From positions 1-64,000 of the forward strand of contig CALLVD010000024.1 of the NCBI GenBank assembly GCA_938010385.1: 64,000 nucleotides of DNA. The letters run 5' to 3'. Position 1 is the stretch's first letter. Each line of letters begins with the position of its first letter. A model generated the notes under the pieces. That model ran no database searches and was not told where the DNA came from. It worked only from the letters and a program-made list of their open reading frames with translations. This DNA is from an uncultured Robiginitomaculum sp. Its GTDB lineage: Bacteria; Pseudomonadota; Alphaproteobacteria; Caulobacterales; Maricaulaceae. Shown here piece after piece: positions 54,185 to 64,000 of the stretch. The position numbers and the translations under genes are program-made.

Positions 54185-54820
54185 ATGATGACGCGATTTA
54201 TTTTTGGCCCGATTGCCGGCGGCCTTCTGCTCTTTGGCGCGGCGGGGCCGCAGGCTTATGCCTCACAAGATGACGGGCCGCTGCGCGTCTTCGGCCTGTC
54301 TGTCGGACAAAGCGCGGCTGATATCGCGCCGGCCCTGTCCGAAACGCCGTTTAAGCCGGCCGAGCGCGAAGCGCGAAAAGAAAAGACGCGCAGCGCTTCG
54401 CTGAAACAATCACGGTTTGTCACCGACGCCGGCGACGCTCTGGTTTTTGATATTGCCGCGCGAAACGGCGGCTTTACCCAGGGCCGCATTATCGGACTGA
54501 ATTACGCCCCGGTGCGCGCCGATGACGGCATAGCGCTGGAGAAAAAGCTGCGCGCGAAATTCGGAAAACCGCTCGTCGGTCACGATTTGGGTAATGACAG
54601 CCATCTTTATGTGTGGGAGCAGCCCGCACCCGAACAAAGCCGCGATTTCGGCGCGCTTTTGACTGTCAGTCTTGAGACCGGAGAGACGTCTGTTCTTAAG
54701 ATCAGCCAATTCAGCCGTCCGGCCGCCTTGTCCGGGACAGTCGCTGCGCCGGTTCGCCGGGCCGCAGGACGCAAGCAGGCCGGAGCCGCAAAAGGGGGTT
54801 TTGCGGGCCCTGTTGACTGA
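54185..54820 (+). CDS. Hypothetical secreted protein
   Basis: Signal peptide GPIAGGLLLFGAAGPQAYASQ; divergent from cpaB. Confidence 0.7.
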   Translation: MMTRFIFGPIAGGLLLFGAAGPQAYASQDDGPLRVFGLSVGQSAADIAPALSETPFKPAEREARKEKTRSASLKQSRFVTDAGDALVFDIAARNGGFTQGRIIGLNYAPVRADDGIALEKKLRAKFGKPLVGHDLGNDSHLYVWEQPAPEQSRDFGALLTVSLETGETSVLKISQFSRPAALSGTVAAPVRRAAGRKQAGAAKGGFAGPVD

Positions 54821-54892: not shown

Positions 54893-55369
54893 ATGTTTCG
54901 ATCACTGACATTGACGGCGGCGATTGCCGCGATGAGCTTTGGCGCAGCTGCCTCAGCGCTGACCGCCGAGCAAAAAGTTTATAAAGAGGTCCGCACGCAG
55001 ACGCCGACCGGAGAGGTTAAGCTGACGCGCGAGGCGGCCAAATTGGTCACGCCGGGCGAAAATGTTATCTACGCCTTGGAGTTTAAAAACGATAAGGCCG
55101 AGCCGGCAGGTGACATTGTCCTGACCATGCCGATTCCGAAAGATGTAGCTTATATTGAGGGCTCTGCTGAGACGCAGCTGGCCTCTCTGACCTATTCTGC
55201 TGACAATGGCGACAGTTTTTCATCACGGGAGTCTGTCATGACAATCGATAATGACGGGAGCTTGCGCCCGGCCAAGCCTGAAGAGCTGACCCATATTCGC
55301 TGGAGCGTATCCGAAGAGATCGCGCCGAATGCCGGCGGCGAGCTGTCGTTTAAGGGCCGCCTTAAATAA
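54893..55369 (+). CDS. Secreted DUF11-like single-domain protein
   Basis: Signal peptide; AKLVTPGENVIYALEFKNDKAEPAGDIVLTMPIPKDVAYIEGSAE; RBS and terminator present. Confidence 0.75.
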   Translation: MFRSLTLTAAIAAMSFGAAASALTAEQKVYKEVRTQTPTGEVKLTREAAKLVTPGENVIYALEFKNDKAEPAGDIVLTMPIPKDVAYIEGSAETQLASLTYSADNGDSFSSRESVMTIDNDGSLRPAKPEELTHIRWSVSEEIAPNAGGELSFKGRLK

Positions 55370-55393
55370 GGTCCTTTAAAGTTTAAAATATTC

Positions 55394-55429
55394 AGCCCGG
55401 CGCCGGTTTTCCCGCGCCGGGCTTTTTTG
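55394..55429 (+). terminator. Rho-independent terminator
   Basis: AGCCCGGCGC-cggttttccc-GCGCCGGGCT followed by TTTTTG. Confidence 0.85.
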
Positions 55430-55792
55430 TGCCCGGCCCTTGGCGCGCAGAAAGAAAGCGTGTTGAGCCGGCTAAGGCCGCAGCTTAAAACCCCGCCCTT
55501 TTATTCACGGCTGATATGCGCGATCACAGAAGCGTCGGCGCCGGCCGTTTGGAGGCCGATTAAAGGCGGAAGCTTTTCGCTGCGCCGACTTAATTGTTTT
55601 AAAACTTTGACCGATCTGAATTTCAAAGCTTGCCTGCATTCAGCGTTTTTGCGGACCTGCGCCCTTTCATTGCGCAAGCGGAGATCCGGCGGGCAAAAAG
55701 AATTTTGCGCCCTGAGAATCGCTCGGCGTAAACAGTCTCCTTTTGGCACAGAATTGTTTATGGTAAATTGCGTCTTGCAAAGACTTAAAGGC

Positions 55793-55807
55793 TTAAGGCA
55801 GGGTTAA
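55793..55807. promoter_or_regulatory. CtrA-like box
   Basis: TTAA-GGCAGGG-TTAA (TTAA-N7-TTAA). Confidence 0.4.
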
Positions 55808-55916
55808 GGGTGCTGAAGATTGCGTTAACAGCCTATGCCCGCGTTAAGATTGCGGTCTTTATTAATTAAGATTTTCCGATTGAAAATCTGTAAAAAAGTG
55901 CGTCCCTGCGCGGTCT

Positions 55917-55931
55917 TTAACCGGTTTTTAA
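55917..55931. promoter_or_regulatory. CtrA-like box
   Basis: TTAA-CCGGTTT-TTAA (TTAA-N7-TTAA). Confidence 0.45.
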
Positions 55932-55994
55932 TTAACCTTATCAAATCTTAACGCACTTATTTTTGCTATAAGTTTATTAACCGTAAAATTTGAC

Positions 55995-56022
55995 GCGCAG
56001 CGGTAAAGGCTGCGCATTTTTT
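55995..56022 (+). terminator. Terminator-like hairpin inside intergenic region
   Basis: GCGCAGC-ggtaaag-GCTGCGC-ATTTTTT, no upstream ORF after the 55394 terminator. Confidence 0.55.
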
Positions 56023-56453
56023 AAATTTGCGCGCTCTCACAAAGATTTTAAACGGCCGCAAATTGCAGGCTTTATTGCCACGCAAAGAGGACGCGGCGGC
56101 CTAAGCGTTTAAACGCAAAAGAGTTTTTACAAACGGCGCGCGCGGACGGCGAGTTTCAGTATGGCGCAGTTTACGTCTTGTTAGGTAATATTTAAAACGG
56201 CTTGCTAACCGCAAGTCAGAGTTTTGCGTGACAGCGCTTTTTTTAGTCGCTAGCAAACTGCGAGAGAGACGGATCCCCCCATCCTGATACAGTCTTGTGA
56301 ATTCGGCCGGTTTTAACGGGCGGTTTACATGTTTATTTTCAAACCGCCTGTTTTGCAGGGGGTTTAAACCCTCTGTTTACCACGCTTGTTTGAGCTTGCT
56401 TAAACCCTTTTTGCTACATTTTTCCTCATCACTAATGAAGGAAAGTAAGTGTA

Positions 56454-57641
56454 ATGGGAAATTTATCTAAACTCACGAAAGTACTGCTGGGCGCGTCTGC
56501 CTTGGCCGTATTTTCTGCAGGCACGGCTCACGCCGAAGGCACTGCAGCGGGAACAAATGTGCAAAACACATTTACCCTGGAATACACCGTCGGCACAACG
56601 CCGCAGCCGGTCATTAATACGGACCCGGCCTGTGTGGCATCAGCGACAACGAACTGTACGAACTCACCGACAAACTTTACGGTTGACCGTTTGATCGATT
56701 TGACGGTTGTCAGCAATGGCGACACGACAGTTGTTCCGGGCGCGCAAGACCAAGAGCTTGTGTTTGCTTTGACAAACGAAGGTAACGATGTTCAGGACTA
56801 CACACTTGACCTGGTTAACGAAGCCGGCGATGACTTTGATACAACAGGCCTGACAATCACATATTACTTTGATGATGGCGTTGCAGGTTTCGGCCCGGGC
56901 GATATCGCAGGCACAGCCTATACCTATACACCGGGCTCCGGCGTTAACACGGAAACAATCTCTCCGACCGGAAGTATTGATCCTGCGGCGACGTCACCGA
57001 TTGTTTGGGTTGTTGTAAGCTCTGACGTCCCGACAACAGCGGCTGATCCTGCTGTTATCGATTTGGCTGAAGCTGACATCACATTGATCGCTGATACGGC
57101 CAATGACGGCACAACAGGCGCGACGGCTGTATTGGCTGTTGCGGATACAGGCGGTAACACGCTGACAGGCGCGGCTGAAAACGTCCTTGCCGATATCGAC
57201 TCCGACGGTGCAGGCACAAATGACGGTGCAAATGACGGTAGCTTCGCAGCCACCGGTACTTATATCGTTGCTGACCCTGATCTTGACGCTGTTAAGACAG
57301 TTTCTGTCTTTGCACAGGATGACACAAATTGCGGAACTATTCCGGGCACACCTGTTGCAGGCGCTCTGGCTATTCCGGGTGCATGTGTTGAGTATGTGAT
57401 TACGGTCACAAACAACGGTTCAAATGCCGGTTCTAACGTCACTGATATCGACTTTGCCGATATCCTGCCAAGCGATCTGGAATTCGTCGCGGCTGACGTT
57501 ACAACGTTTGACGCTGCTGATTTAACAGCCCCTGCGGCCAACACAGATTGTGATGCCGGCGCGTGTACAGTTGCTCTGACAGACGCTTCCCTTGACTTCG
57601 GTCAGGTCGGCACAGTCATCATCCGTGCTTTGGTGAAGTAA
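56454..57641 (+). CDS. Secreted acidic DUF11-type surface protein
   Basis: Signal peptide (VLLGASALAVFSAGTAHAEG); DRLIDLTVVSNGDTTVVPGAQDQELVFALTNEGNDVQDYTLDLVNEAGDDFD and C-terminal DUF11-like ACVEYVITVTNNGSNAGSNVTDIDFADILPSDLEFV. Confidence 0.82.
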   Translation: MGNLSKLTKVLLGASALAVFSAGTAHAEGTAAGTNVQNTFTLEYTVGTTPQPVINTDPACVASATTNCTNSPTNFTVDRLIDLTVVSNGDTTVVPGAQDQELVFALTNEGNDVQDYTLDLVNEAGDDFDTTGLTITYYFDDGVAGFGPGDIAGTAYTYTPGSGVNTETISPTGSIDPAATSPIVWVVVSSDVPTTAADPAVIDLAEADITLIADTANDGTTGATAVLAVADTGGNTLTGAAENVLADIDSDGAGTNDGANDGSFAATGTYIVADPDLDAVKTVSVFAQDDTNCGTIPGTPVAGALAIPGACVEYVITVTNNGSNAGSNVTDIDFADILPSDLEFVAADVTTFDAADLTAPAANTDCDAGACTVALTDASLDFGQVGTVIIRALVK

Positions 57642-57768
57642 GCTTTACCTGAAAATATCTATCTGCGGCGGAGATGAATGCCGCCGCAGATACGCTCTCT
57701 CTTTTAAATTTTTTGGAAAGCCGATTCTACAAATTTCGACAGCCGGGCGCGTTGATACGAAATGAGGA

Positions 57769-60700
57769 TTGGTGGGGTTTGACGTGAATACAATTATCCA
57801 ATTTTGGGTAAAGTGCTTCGCTGTGACTGTTTTGATGTTGGCGTCCCTCTCAGGAGCAGAGGCGCAAAACGCCTCAAGTCTCGGACGCACGGTTACCAAT
57901 GTCGCGACAGTAAGCTATGAGACCGAGTTCGGCTCTCTGACCCTGCAAACCAATCCGGCAGTGTTTACAGTTGAGGCGCGCAGAACAGACTCGACGATTG
58001 AGTTCTTTCGTTTTGCCCCGTCCTCCGACAGTGCCGATTTGATCAAAGTTAACGGCTCTGATTACGCGCCAAGCGGAAATCTCTCCGGACCGTTCACGCA
58101 AACCGGCGCGCCTGTCACAGGCATCGGAAACCTGATTGATTTGTCAAATGCTGTCCCGTTAACCCCGGCAGAGCTTTATGCCACCGGCGAGCTGATGTTT
58201 GTTCGGGTGATTGACCCCGGCCAGAACGGCAATGACAATATTATAGAGACCGTGACAATTACGATTGCCACATCAGGCGCGGATGAAATCGTCCTGCGCC
58301 TTTATGAAAGCGGTCCGGCGACCGGCGAATTTTGGGCTTACGTCCCGACAAGCCGCGATCCGAGCCCGCAACATGATAACCGCCTGACAACCGAGTCAGA
58401 AACGCGCCTGACGGCAACCTATATCGATGCGTTTGACGCCACAGAAGTGTCCGTTGATACCGCCTTGGTTGATCCGTACTGCCGCGTGTTTAACGCGCTG
58501 ACCGGTGATTTGGTCGACGGCGCTGTTGTAACGCTTATGGACCGCGCCACCGGCTTGCCCGCAACTGTGCTGGGCGTTGACGGCGAGTCGATATATCCGT
58601 CCACGGTCACGACCGGCGAAAACACTGAAGATTCCGGCGGCTATGTTTATGAAGTCCGCCAAGGGGAGTTTAAATTCCCGATTTTAATGCCGGGCGATTA
58701 CTATCTCGACGTTGAAACCCCTGAAGGTTTCACGTTCAGTTCCGTCTATCAGCCTGCGCAATTTGCCGGCATTGATAACGGCCCTTACTTAATTGAAGAT
58801 CAGGGCTCTTACGGCGAGACATTTGCGCAGGCTGCATTAGGCCCGCTGCATTTTGATGTGCCGATTGATCCCAAGACTGACATTGTGCTGACCAAAACGG
58901 CGTCCCCGACAATCGCTGATGTCGGTGACTTTATTCGCTATAGTGTGAATATCCAAAACGCCGGTAATGTCGCCTCCACAATGCGCGTTCATGATATGGC
59001 GCCGCGCGGCTTTCGTTTCATCAGCGGCTCATCGCGCGTCAACGCCTTAAAAGTCGCTGACCCTGTGGTCTCCGATAACGGCCAAGAGCTGACCTATACC
59101 CTGCCTGTTTTACAGCCGGGCGAGAGCTATCAACTGCACTACATCATGCAGGTCGGCGCGAACCTGTCCGAAGGTGAGTATGTCAACTCCGCTATGGTTA
59201 TTGATAATGACGGCGTTCAAAGCTCGAATATAGCCCGCGCGGAAGTGACCGTTCGCGAAGAGCTGCTGCGCTCAACCAATACAATTATCGGCCGCGTGGC
59301 AGAATATGCCTGTGACGCCGATGAAGACTGGGCCAAGGAAATCCTGGACGGCACCGGCGTGTCCGGCGTGCGGCTTTATATGGAAACCGGCGAGTACACC
59401 GTCACCGATGAAGACGGCCTGTATCACTTTGAAGGCGTTTCGCCCGGCACTCATGTTGTCCAGGTCGATGAAGAAACTCTGCCGCAAGGCTACGCCGCCA
59501 TGATGTGCGAAGATAACAGCCAATATGCCCGCTTGAAGACGTCGAAATTTATCGACAATAAAGGCGGCGGCATCTGGCGCGCAAACTTCTATCTGGCCCG
59601 AACCGGCGAGATTGATGACAGTATCGGACCAAAGCAGTTTAACGATACAACCGAATATTTGGACTTCGGCTCTGAATGGCTTGAAACCCAAACAGACGCG
59701 ATTGAATGGGTCTATCCGCAAGCGGGTAAAACCCCGTCTGCGCCGTCCGTCAATATCGGTATTAAGCACGCCAAAGGCCAAACGGTCAGCCTGACTTTAA
59801 ATGACAGCCCTGTACCGCTTTTGAACTTTCAGGCGCGCGACAGCAATAAAACCCGTTCGGTTTTAATCAGCCGCTGGCGCAGTGTTGACGTGCTCGACGG
59901 GCAAAATGTCTTTGTGGCGACGGTCAAAAACGCTGACGGCAGTATTGCTGAAACTATCCGCCGCGAGATCTATTTCATCAAAGATATTGCGCGCGCTATT
60001 GCGGCCCCGGATCAGTCCGTGCTGGTCGCTGACGGGCGTACCCATCCGGTGATTGCAGTGCGTATTGAAGACAATGCGGGCCGCCCGGTGCATTCCGGCC
60101 GCAAGCTGAAGGTCGATGTTCAGGAGCCTTATCGTCTTGAGACCTCTGATCGCCTTGAGAGCGTTAATGAGCTGGTCGCGCCCAACGCCTCGCGCGCCGA
60201 TGCCTCTGTGGGCGCAAACGGTATCGCCTTGATCCGCTTGCAGCCGACGCTGCAAACCGGCCGCGCAACCGTTACAGTCACGCTGGATGACGGCCGCACG
60301 GTTGACGTCACGATGTACCTGAAACCTGAAAAACGCGACTGGATTATCATCGGTCTGGCCGAAGGCTCTGCCGGTATGGAGCAGCTTGAAGGCAATAAAA
60401 TTGATCTGTCGGAAAACGGCACTGACATTATTGACGGACGCCTGGCTTTCTTTGCCAAAGGCTTGGTCAAGGGTGACTGGCTGATGACACTGGCGGTGGA
60501 TACCGCTAAGCGCCGCGGCAAGCGGGACGGCGATCTGTTTGAAGAGATTGATCCGAACGCCTATTACACGCTTTACGGTGACCGGTCTTATCAGGAGCAT
60601 GAAGCGCGCTCACGCTATCCCGTTTATCTGAAACTGGAAAAGAACACGTTCTATGCCATGTTCGGCGATTACGACACCAATATGATCGACAGCGAGTTGA

Positions 60701-62817
60701 CGCGCTATTCCCGTCGTCTGTCCGGCTTTAAGACGGAATATGCCGGCGAGCGTTTTGATCTGATTGCCTTTGCGGCCGAGACCAACCAAGGCTTTGCCAA
60801 AGACGAAATTCCGGCGGACGGGACAAGCGGCGTTTATCGCACAAGCTTCTCCCCCGTGCTCGGCGGAACAGAAACCATCACGATTGAAACCCGTGACCGC
60901 TTCAGAAGCGACGTTATTCTCGACAGCCGAATTATGCGCCGTCATTTGGACTATACGATCGACTATCTGACAGGCGATATTATTTTCCGCTTGCCGGTCG
61001 ACGGTACGGACGCGCAATTTAATCCGAACGTCATCGTTGTTGATTATGAAACGTCCGAGGATTCGGAGCGCAATCTGACCTATGGCGCCCGTGCGGCGGT
61101 CAAGTCTGCGGGCGGGAAACTGCGCGCCGGTGTGAACTATATCCACGAAGAAGGCCGCGCTGATCGCCCCGGCGGCGAGCAGGATGTGCTGGGCGTTGAT
61201 ATTGTTGCGCGCTTGTCGGAATCTACCGAAGTGCGGGCCGAATATGCCCTGTCAAAAGACAAGCAAGACAGCGGCGAGACCATCGACGCTGCGGCTTATC
61301 TGGCCGAGATTGTGCACACGTCTGATGATTTCTCTGCCCAAGCCTATATTCGCGAAGAAGAAGCCGGCTACGGCGTGGGTCAACAGGGCAGTAACACAAA
61401 CGGCATTCGCCGCTACGGCGTTGACGCGAGCTACGTTATTTCTGAAAATATTCAGGAAGACACCGGCCGCCGCCTTCTGCGCAATGTTGAGGGTCAGTCC
61501 TATGTTGAGCAAAGCCTGGCAACAGGCGCTAAGCGCACGCTGACAGAAATCAGCGTCACCCAAGACAGCGATGCCTTCGGCGGCGCGCTGGGCCTGCGTC
61601 ATGTCAAAGAAGACCTTACCGCCGGCGAGCAGCGCGAAAGCCTGCTGGCTATCGGCTCGGCCCGGTTCTCATCGCCTAAGCATGGCTTTACAGCCTCCGT
61701 CGCCCATGAGCAGCCTTTGGGCGGCGAGGATGAGTCAACTCTCTTCCCGCAGCGCACCACGCTGGGACTGGATAAGACCATCACAAGCAAAGCGGCTGTC
61801 AGCCTGCGCCATGAAGTTCTCGAAGGCCAAAATGCGGCCGGCGAAAACACAACGCTCGGCGTAACCTACAGCCCATGGATCGGTACGGACGTCTCTGCAC
61901 AGACTGACATGCTGACAGGGGATTCCGCCCGCCGCCTCGGCGCGACTGTCGGCGTTGACCAACAGTTTAAGCTAAGCGAAAAATGGAGCGCGTCTGCGGG
62001 CCTTGCTCAGCGTAAGATTTTAGACAATGTCGGCACAGCGATTGACGTTGTCCCCGATGACGCGATTGCGCCGATTGATATCAGCGAAGATTATATTACC
62101 GGCTATATGGGCGTCGGTTACCGCACGGCTGTCACCTCGGCATCTGCCCGTCTTGAGGCCCGCGATTCTCAAAGTTCTGAGACCTATATCGCAACGGCCG
62201 GCGTAGCGCGCGAGCTGTCAGAAGAGCTCTCCATTGCCGGCGCGGCGCGCAGCCAAGCGGTCAATTATAAGACGGACGGCACGGACGAGGCGCGCACGGA
62301 TATTCGCATCGGGACCGCTTGGCGTCCGCGCGGTGAAGGCATCGTTGTCTTTGACCGGTTTGATTTTAAACATGACCGCACGGCAGATAATGTCAGCACA
62401 ACAAAGCTGATCAATAATCTGACCGCAAATGTCATGGTCAATGATCGCACGCAAGTGACCGGCTATTGGGGAATCAAGCATGTTGAAACTGACATTGCCG
62501 ATGACCGCTACAGTAATTGGACCAATCTTCTGGGCGGTGAGCTGCGCTATGATGTAACCCCGCGCATTGATGTGGGTGTGCACGGCCAAATGATCAGCAC
62601 GGGCGAAACAACCTCTTATGCTTATGGCCCGTCAATCGGCGTGTCCCCGGCAGAGAATATGTGGATCAGCGTCGGTTATAATGTCGAAGGCTATAATGAT
62701 GATGATTTTGAAGCTGCCGAATACAGCCGCGACGGCCTTTATATCAAGCTGCGCCTGAAATTTGACCAAGAGAGTGCGGGTAAGCTCTTAAGAAAGATTT
62801 CACCGACCGGGCGTTAA
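57769..62817 (+). CDS. Giant secreted protein: DUF11 plus SdrD_B/carboxypeptidase-like domains and C-terminal outer-membrane beta-barrel-like region
   Basis: Signal peptide; DIVLTKTASPTIADVGDFIRYSVNIQNAGNVAST (DUF11); SGVRLYMETGEYTVTDEDGLYHFEGVSPGTHVVQVD (Sdr/CarboxypepD-like); long alternating aromatic/polar strands to the C-terminus. Confidence 0.8.
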   Translation: MVGFDVNTIIQFWVKCFAVTVLMLASLSGAEAQNASSLGRTVTNVATVSYETEFGSLTLQTNPAVFTVEARRTDSTIEFFRFAPSSDSADLIKVNGSDYAPSGNLSGPFTQTGAPVTGIGNLIDLSNAVPLTPAELYATGELMFVRVIDPGQNGNDNIIETVTITIATSGADEIVLRLYESGPATGEFWAYVPTSRDPSPQHDNRLTTESETRLTATYIDAFDATEVSVDTALVDPYCRVFNALTGDLVDGAVVTLMDRATGLPATVLGVDGESIYPSTVTTGENTEDSGGYVYEVRQGEFKFPILMPGDYYLDVETPEGFTFSSVYQPAQFAGIDNGPYLIEDQGSYGETFAQAALGPLHFDVPIDPKTDIVLTKTASPTIADVGDFIRYSVNIQNAGNVASTMRVHDMAPRGFRFISGSSRVNALKVADPVVSDNGQELTYTLPVLQPGESYQLHYIMQVGANLSEGEYVNSAMVIDNDGVQSSNIARAEVTVREELLRSTNTIIGRVAEYACDADEDWAKEILDGTGVSGVRLYMETGEYTVTDEDGLYHFEGVSPGTHVVQVDEETLPQGYAAMMCEDNSQYARLKTSKFIDNKGGGIWRANFYLARTGEIDDSIGPKQFNDTTEYLDFGSEWLETQTDAIEWVYPQAGKTPSAPSVNIGIKHAKGQTVSLTLNDSPVPLLNFQARDSNKTRSVLISRWRSVDVLDGQNVFVATVKNADGSIAETIRREIYFIKDIARAIAAPDQSVLVADGRTHPVIAVRIEDNAGRPVHSGRKLKVDVQEPYRLETSDRLESVNELVAPNASRADASVGANGIALIRLQPTLQTGRATVTVTLDDGRTVDVTMYLKPEKRDWIIIGLAEGSAGMEQLEGNKIDLSENGTDIIDGRLAFFAKGLVKGDWLMTLAVDTAKRRGKRDGDLFEEIDPNAYYTLYGDRSYQEHEARSRYPVYLKLEKNTFYAMFGDYDTNMIDSELTRYSRRLSGFKTEYAGERFDLIAFAAETNQGFAKDEIPADGTSGVYRTSFSPVLGGTETITIETRDRFRSDVILDSRIMRRHLDYTIDYLTGDIIFRLPVDGTDAQFNPNVIVVDYETSEDSERNLTYGARAAVKSAGGKLRAGVNYIHEEGRADRPGGEQDVLGVDIVARLSESTEVRAEYALSKDKQDSGETIDAAAYLAEIVHTSDDFSAQAYIREEEAGYGVGQQGSNTNGIRRYGVDASYVISENIQEDTGRRLLRNVEGQSYVEQSLATGAKRTLTEISVTQDSDAFGGALGLRHVKEDLTAGEQRESLLAIGSARFSSPKHGFTASVAHEQPLGGEDESTLFPQRTTLGLDKTITSKAAVSLRHEVLEGQNAAGENTTLGVTYSPWIGTDVSAQTDMLTGDSARRLGATVGVDQQFKLSEKWSASAGLAQRKILDNVGTAIDVVPDDAIAPIDISEDYITGYMGVGYRTAVTSASARLEARDSQSSETYIATAGVARELSEELSIAGAARSQAVNYKTDGTDEARTDIRIGTAWRPRGEGIVVFDRFDFKHDRTADNVSTTKLINNLTANVMVNDRTQVTGYWGIKHVETDIADDRYSNWTNLLGGELRYDVTPRIDVGVHGQMISTGETTSYAYGPSIGVSPAENMWISVGYNVEGYNDDDFEAAEYSRDGLYIKLRLKFDQESAGKLLRKISPTGR

Positions 62818-62846
62818 TCTCGGATATAACAGACAAGGTAGGGATA

Positions 62847-64000
62847 ATGCCTTTGGGATTGAAAACATTCAGATGCGCTGCGGCGATGGGAGTCGCTGCG
62901 GCCGCTGCCATACTTGCCCCTGCCGTGTCCGCGCAAACCGGCACGTATACGACAACGACCGGCGGCGCCATCGGCGACGCGGTGACGTGCGGAGTCGCAA
63001 ATTTGACCCGCACGATTAATGTCCCGGACAGTTTTATTGTGCAAGATTTGGACTTCGGCTTTCTGGCAGAACATGAATATCGCGGCGATATCCGCGTCGA
63101 GCTTTCTCATGGGGGCATCACCCGCCGCATTATCGAATCGGACTTTAACGGCCCCGGATCTTTGACGAATTATAATGTTCGCTTAAACGACGGCGCCGCC
63201 GATTTTATTTTAGGCTCAACCCATACAACGGGGGACGGCTTGGTCGCGCCGCCTTATGAAAATGATGTCAGGCCTGATGCAAGCCTGAACGCTTTTGCCG
63301 GACAAAACGCCGCCGGCCTTTGGACCTTTACAATTTGCGATAATTATAACGGTCTGGATTTCGGTAACTTTTTGCGCGCCGATCTGATTTTTACAGGCTC
63401 TACGGAAGCGGATTTGTCTCTGGATTTAACCCACACACCGGCAAGCCCGTCGCAAGGCACGAATGTGACCTTTACCGCGCAAATCACAAATAGCGGGCCG
63501 CTGGCCTCAACCGGCCGCAGCGCGCAGATTAACCTGCCGAGCGGATTTACATTTGTCTCTGCGACCGGCGGCGCAACCCATAGCGGCGGGGTCGTTACTT
63601 GGACGCCGGGAACAAGCTTGGCATCAGGCAGTTCCGAGAGCATTGCAATTACGGCGACAATGAACTTTACGGGCGACTATACTGCAACGGCGCAGATTAC
63701 AGCCCAAGATCAGGACGATCCCGACAGTACGCCGGCAAACGGTATTAACGGCGAAGATGATGACGCGACGCGCCCGGTGACGCCGGCCGTGACGCCGCCT
63801 CCCGCGCTCAGCTGCGGCGCCGCCGCAACCGTGCATGATTGGGACGTGAATGCATGGGCGGCCGGAGATTTAAGCAATTCTTACACAACGGACGGGGAAA
63901 CGATAAGCTGGGCTCTGACCGGGGCTACCGCGTCGCTTCAGCCTAATCCGGACGGCTCCGGAACGGCTTTGCCGGCGTTGTCGGATTATGACAGCGGCGG
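62847..64000 (+). CDS. Secreted P-domain (proprotein convertase-like) plus DUF11 protein, truncated by window edge
   Basis: Not in ORF track (no stop in window). MPLGLKTFRCAAAMGVAAAAAILAPAVSAQTGTY; VQDLDFGFLAEHEYRGDIRVELSHGG...FAGQNAAGLWTFTICDNYNGLDFGNF; LSLDLTHTPASPSQGTNVTFTAQITNSGPLAS. Confidence 0.82.
   Translation, partial: MPLGLKTFRCAAAMGVAAAAAILAPAVSAQTGTYTTTTGGAIGDAVTCGVANLTRTINVPDSFIVQDLDFGFLAEHEYRGDIRVELSHGGITRRIIESDFNGPGSLTNYNVRLNDGAADFILGSTHTTGDGLVAPPYENDVRPDASLNAFAGQNAAGLWTFTICDNYNGLDFGNFLRADLIFTGSTEADLSLDLTHTPASPSQGTNVTFTAQITNSGPLASTGRSAQINLPSGFTFVSATGGATHSGGVVTWTPGTSLASGSSESIAITATMNFTGDYTATAQITAQDQDDPDSTPANGINGEDDDATRPVTPAVTPPPALSCGAAATVHDWDVNAWAAGDLSNSYTTDGETISWALTGATASLQPNPDGSGTALPALSDYDSG

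Follow-up and report, generated by a model that had tools for sequence, protein, structure and literature searches.

DUF11 is an isopeptide-bond domain, termed CLIPPER, which requires a Lys, an Asp and an Asn residue (PMC12617251). In the structure 9IFR, from a fibrillar adhesin of Acinetobacter silvestris, the bond is made through Lys715, Asp748 and Asn806 (PMC12617251). Head-to-tail assembly is known from the archaeal thread protein Saci_0406, which forms a filament by donor-strand complementation with a proposed intermolecular isopeptide bond (PMC9715654); this bond runs from the N-terminal amine of Asp24 to Asn57, between subunits two apart (PMC9715654). A search of the open-access literature, which left out subscription papers and preprints, found no account of the system described below, nor of a Gram-negative or CLIPPER-based equivalent.

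Our analysis suggests that a cluster of four genes, D-A-B-C, encodes a thin fibre on the cell surface in which donor strands complement DUF11/CLIPPER domains, a reading that we hold with slightly better than even confidence and in which the docking, the filament and the bond are all inferred. What makes the system interesting is a split isopeptide domain, which the original prediction for this DNA had not seen.

Gene cluster and distribution

The window, by which we mean the whole stretch of 64,000 nucleotides analysed, comprises the initial 64 kb of a contig 87 kb long. It contains four secreted open reading frames on the plus strand, where all features of the module given below also lie: D (54893..55369, 158 aa), A (56454..57641, 395 aa), B (57769..62817, 1682 aa, TTG start) and C (62847..64000 and on to contig position 64871, 674 aa). 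Four secreted DUF11-type proteins, the last running out of the window, had been predicted, and these are present: A, B and C exceed the cut-off of Pfam DUF11 (PF01345), whereas D falls below it (13.5 bits against 24.6) and is above that of the NCBIfam DUF11-repeat model TIGR01451 (29.7 against 24). A had been called small; at its length it is not very small. The gap between D and A (55370-56453) is about 1.1 kb long and holds terminator-like stem-loops at 55403-55420 and 55995-56015. A Tad locus occupies the opposite strand at about 43.8-54.0 kb.

Among 61 genomes from the organism itself, its family and its order, A and B occur together in 17, and full-length B is absent from all the others of this set; outside the 17 there is a weak match to A in one genome (G044) and only partial B-like matches in another (G013). 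From a collection of named organisms, 80 loci with relatives of B were fetched, 68 of which show B's own start. A lies directly upstream of B on the same strand in 63 of these 68 loci with a complete B 5' end, at a median distance of 107 bp in the named-collection loci. D is present in 44 of the 68; it is missing from several loci, and C is missing from most flanks. In a sample of 289 genomes from the class, three have full-length B and the same three have A, while one further genome encodes the N-terminal part of A and B as a single protein. A lack of conserved co-occurrence would have refuted the original prediction, which the survey instead supports.

The closest named relatives of B are from Robiginitomaculum, Hellea, Algimonas, Litorimonas and Henriciella, and the operon is also found in Nitrospirae, Desulfuromonadales and gamma-proteobacteria. 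The order A-D-A-B occurs in bins named Nitrospirae, Thiotrichaceae, Helicobacteraceae and Rhodospirillales, and D-A-B in a Desulfuromonadales bin; in these bins C is sometimes present and the genes sometimes overlap. Novosphingobium sp. THN1 has the whole module as A-D-A-B-C, in line with the remark in the original prediction that such proteins are common in sphingomonad-like genomes. The cultured type strain Hellea balneolensis DSM 19091 has D-A-B (locus L075). Plasmid p4 of Acinetobacter haemolyticus carries D, a fragmented A, B, OmpA and a C-like gene. Judged by gene order, D-A-B-C is a real, conserved operon.

Several further observations were made at these and neighbouring loci. A secreted plus-strand open reading frame of 211 aa begins at 54185, upstream of the cluster; among the 80 loci, it was detected only in that from the closest relative. 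Downstream of C, on the opposite strand at contig 65698-71044 (L049), are sensor-kinase-like and C39-peptidase ABC-transporter-like genes, named by eye from the sequence; relatives of the former were found close to the module in 16 of the 80 loci and relatives of the latter in 6. In L068 and L069, frameshifts break one A and B in Novosphingobium THN1, and A is in pieces in A. haemolyticus p4; decay, sequencing error and phase variation are all possible, and none is favoured. Extra A-like genes were found at G017:C4:219059-220108 and in L066 (G002:C252), the latter with no adjoining B within the 9 kb read. Residues about 840-1165 of B recur in very long open frames (about 1,200-6,800 aa) of the same genomes, at G017:C4 about 97.5-100.5 kb, G010:C2 about 432-435 kb, G023:C86 and L023-L032, which we label a putative second family of large surface proteins. 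Two-gene versions, with a giant DUF11 or SdrD_B protein beside a B-barrel-like protein annotated as a TonB-dependent receptor or OmpA family member, are present in Nitratireductor (L072) and Eleftheria (L071).

Domain organization of the four proteins

Protein A consists of a signal peptide, N-terminal strands, a middle beta-sandwich and a C-terminal, incomplete DUF11/CLIPPER domain (residues 274-395, 57273..57638). This C-terminal copy has Lys281 (57294-57296) and Asp336 (57459-57461), and its last predicted strand is the end of the protein, '..VIIRALVK', where a complete domain would continue to the Asn-bearing strands. No LPXTG or hydrophobic sorting tail is present in A. The mature N-terminus carries the motif 'GTxVxNTFTLxYxV..FTVDR', which contains Asn38 (codon 56565-56567) and falls within the proposed donor strands (residues 28-79, 56535..56690). 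Lys281 and Asp336 are each found in all 69 homologues, which span several phyla, and Asn38 in 67, two homologues being without the donor Asn; the three residues rank 5th, 6th and 13th in conservation among 338 columns. The mature N-terminus of A looks like the strands missing from its C-terminal domain. AlphaFold models mature A with high confidence (pLDDT 90.7), the N-terminal region included, and with a C-terminus that ends in a strand. The best Foldseek matches of this model are integrin Ig tandems, with donor-strand fused CfaE/CfaB pilins lower down, all at low TM-scores.

The donor-strand reading was tested with profiles and gave mixed results. A profile of the A acceptor followed by the donor matches the CnaA-type isopeptide domains 3KPT, 3RKP and 2OKM, from pilins and collagen adhesins, at modest E-values (0.026-0.13) across the join, and in 3KPT and 3RKP it aligns the donor Asn to the Asn of 'ILNTAKIHF'; neither the acceptor alone nor the acceptor with a reversed donor found any of the three. 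A short-hairpin HMM from the internal domain of B gave no gain over shuffled sequence, and hhalign of the donors against that domain returned only a 12-column match, on the strand following the expected one. A search for the Asn context of 9IFR by way of an Acinetobacter protein gave no match. In Pfam scoring of joined constructs, the score of the A acceptor was 28.8 without a donor, against 28.1 with its own donor, 31.7 when joined to the B donor and 23.6 when joined to a shuffled one; D rose from 13.7 alone to 18.1 with the B donor; and the A protein of locus L144 scored 25.5 alone, 28.6 with its donor and 25.3 with a shuffled one, while for L148 the donor gave no gain. Taken from sequence profiles alone, the donor strand is weakly supported.

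Protein B begins with an N-terminal strand motif like that of A (proposed donor strands at residues 38-70, 57880..57978), with Asn44 (codon 57898-57900) in 65 of 67 homologues and no donor Asn in the other two. Ig-like, CLIPPER, SdrD_B-like and Big-like domains follow. One of these is a complete CLIPPER domain (residues 371-495, 58879..59253), which covers positions 1-113 of the 114 of the Pfam DUF11 profile, matches 9IFR and has the triad Lys376, Asp409 and Asn473, kept in 64, 65 and 64 of the 67 homologues, respectively. B hence has a complete CLIPPER of its own and a supernumerary donor, and it has no C-terminal acceptor.

The C-terminal region of B had been described as barrel-like, and the models bear this out as far as prediction goes. 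AlphaFold gives residues 738-1682 more than 30 long strands (pLDDT 78, pTM 0.72), and Foldseek matches of the model are mostly outer-membrane barrels, including SprA, FimD and LptD, with low TM-scores and no close solved relative. We predict with moderate confidence, from models only, that the C-terminus (about residues 890-1682, 60436..62814) is an outer-membrane beta-barrel. The original prediction also escapes the other finding that would have counted against it, predicted structures with neither a C-terminal barrel nor Ig-like folds. A 2205-aa homologue (L153:2952-9569) has the N-terminal part of A fused to B. In this protein an acceptor-type strand, 'LGMSFGVRVD', runs directly into donor-type strands in cis, and the A profile aligns well only across A's first 209 positions; the completed joint may be present within this single chain, in the internal domains.

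Protein C has P-domain-like and DUF11 domains and a C-terminal acceptor, in which the Lys and the Asp are both present in seven of seven homologues; no donor motif was found. The modules that precede the acceptor vary among the homologues (CshA_NR2, GEVED, F5/8C, LamG and P-domain), and such variable binding modules are expected if C is a tip adhesin. Protein D is a single acceptor-type DUF11 domain, without a donor strand, that ends in 'LSFKGRLK' and in which the catalytic Asp is replaced: none of 45 homologues has it (Met in 34, Asn in 7). As the domains of A and C are cut before the Asn strand, any bond would have to link one protein to another. With donors in A and B, only a spare donor in B and only acceptors in C and D, pairing between proteins rather than within them would be the simplest account.

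Stem-loop between A and B

Behind A, at 57660..57692, the A-B gap contains a stem-loop with a 12-bp stem, TATCTGCGGCGGAGATGAATGCCGCCGCAGATA. A strong stem-loop (z below -2 against mononucleotide shuffles) is present in all 45 A-B gaps tested, compared with 20% of other co-directional gaps, 17% of convergent gaps and 59% of D-A gaps. Perfect stems of at least 8 bp occur in 41 of 49 A-B gaps, mostly about 20-28 nt past the A stop in the cases listed. In most loci from L073 to L144 the stem-loops have no evident sequence conservation. A terminator scan of the window's A-B gap found none, and transcription termination was rejected as a general role because a T run follows only 8 of the 41 perfect stem-loops. 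It is possible that the stem-loop is an mRNA-protecting element in its own right. Stem-loops of this kind often give unequal expression within operons. We propose that it protects the A mRNA such that A exceeds B; its position after A fits an excess of A over B.

Discussion

The linkage of the genes, the termini of their products, the conserved triad and the stem-loop are observed features, to which modelling adds a predicted barrel; the fibre that we propose is inferred from them, in the absence of experimental data. In our model, the C-terminal domain of the first A would take up the N-terminal strands of B, that of the second A those of the first, and so on outwards, until C, the putative adhesin, closes the distal end. 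The assignment of B as base, A as shaft and C as tip, and with it the polarity of the fibre, is thus inferred. Wherever A joins B, another A or C, the Lys and Asp of one partner would face the Asn of the other, and a Lys-Asn bond formed spontaneously could then make the fibre covalent with no need for a sortase, although this bond too is an inference. D, lacking the catalytic Asp, would bind donor strands reversibly, and its presumed role is that of a non-covalent periplasmic cap or chaperone, or of a terminator. The barrel of B may be the outer-membrane anchor of the fibre and also its exit pore, an inferred export path, while the stem-loop behind A would keep A above B. The arrangement put forward in the original prediction, an abundant surface protein with an outer-membrane anchor or exporter and an accessory adhesin, fits the co-occurrence of the genes, the predicted barrel, the modules of C and the stem-loop after A.

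It is possible that A is circularly permuted and self-sufficient, its own N-terminal strands completing its own CLIPPER domain, and that it is displayed through B as an abundant monomer. Packing in cis would predict the confident AlphaFold model of the A monomer, N-terminal region included (pLDDT 90.7), and an intramolecular triad in A would resemble known CLIPPER domains. We consider this unlikely, although not negligible, as it leaves unexplained a protein B with a donor only and proteins C and D with an acceptor only. Alternatively, strand exchange may link only B, A and C, which would then form a fixed, short complex or a coat resembling an S-layer in place of a long fibre. The donor-acceptor logic permits one copy of each protein, and the two A genes that flank D in some genomes could represent fixed positions; however, A has both a donor and an acceptor, so its sequence sets no bar to repetition, and the stem-loop after A suggests more A than B. 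A fixed complex hence seems improbable to us.

Strand exchange may also be absent altogether, with B secreting A and C, as an exporter or in an autotransporter-like way, and the shared domains being no more than repeats of a common adhesin module. DUF11 is frequent in adhesins, and B has a large predicted barrel with Foldseek matches to SprA, FimD and LptD, but the invariant Lys and Asp in domains without the Asn strand, and the lost Asp of D, would then be unexplained, and we give this reading little credence. A specific link to the Tad pilus, beside whose locus the original prediction had noted the cluster, is not supported. The Tad genes adjoin the cluster in the window, but cpaB/cpaC accompany the module in no more than 14-15 of the 80 loci, some of which are short contigs; in most loci the module is flanked by other genes, for example the nusA-infB region (assigned by eye on its sequence), a sensor kinase or genes for an ABC transporter. 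A role for the module as a Tad accessory was rejected on these gene neighbourhoods and is barely conceivable; the Tad adjacency is incidental.

A broader claim, on which we are more tentative and rather inclined to doubt than to belief, is that these genes represent a new class of Gram-negative fibre, present in several phyla, with subunits whose ends are out of phase with their domains, donor strands, spontaneous Lys-Asn bonds between subunits (a natural counterpart of split tag/catcher chemistry), a barrel with over 30 strands and a catalytically dead D protein as cap or chaperone. If our reading is right, a widespread and unnamed type of fibre would be added to the Gram-negative surface, isopeptide domains would be able to form pili without sortases, and proteins annotated only as "DUF11 domain protein" would gain a testable role. 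The subunits would also offer a naturally occurring pair that polymerises covalently, which could be put to practical use.

Comparison with known systems

The CLIPPER domain of 9IFR (PMC12617251) belongs to the same domain family as those of the module, and in the internal copy of B the Lys-Asp-Asn triad is likewise complete and intramolecular. However, that paper covers intramolecular bonds, whereas the domains of A and C are cut before the Asn strand; a search of its text for 'split' and 'donor strand' found neither. Chaperone-usher pili (Fim, Pap) resemble the proposed fibre in their logic of an N-terminal donor, Ig-like subunits, a two-domain tip adhesin without a donor and an outer-membrane barrel, but the barrel predicted here is larger and the module has an isopeptide triad. 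There was no significant Pfam or NCBIfam match to an usher or PapD-like chaperone in the 54185 product, D, A, B or the part of C within the window; C has a chance-level NCBIfam usher match (E 0.079). Sortase pili (BcpA-type 3KPT, RrgB) have CnaA-type isopeptide domains, and the acceptor-donor profile of the module aligns to 3KPT; A, in contrast, has neither LPXTG nor a sorting tail, the host is Gram-negative and no sortase is needed in our model.

TasA and TapA of Bacillus are, to our knowledge, from a different protein family and have no barrel. They resemble the proposed fibre in strand complementation and in a partner that serves as a chaperone (PMC10151520), as we propose for D. The archaeal threads (PMC9715654) differ in being archaeal, in having no outer membrane or barrel and in a bond that is not Lys-Asn. 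Nevertheless, when architecture alone is compared, the archaeal thread is the closest precedent for the proposed fibre, with another bond chemistry.
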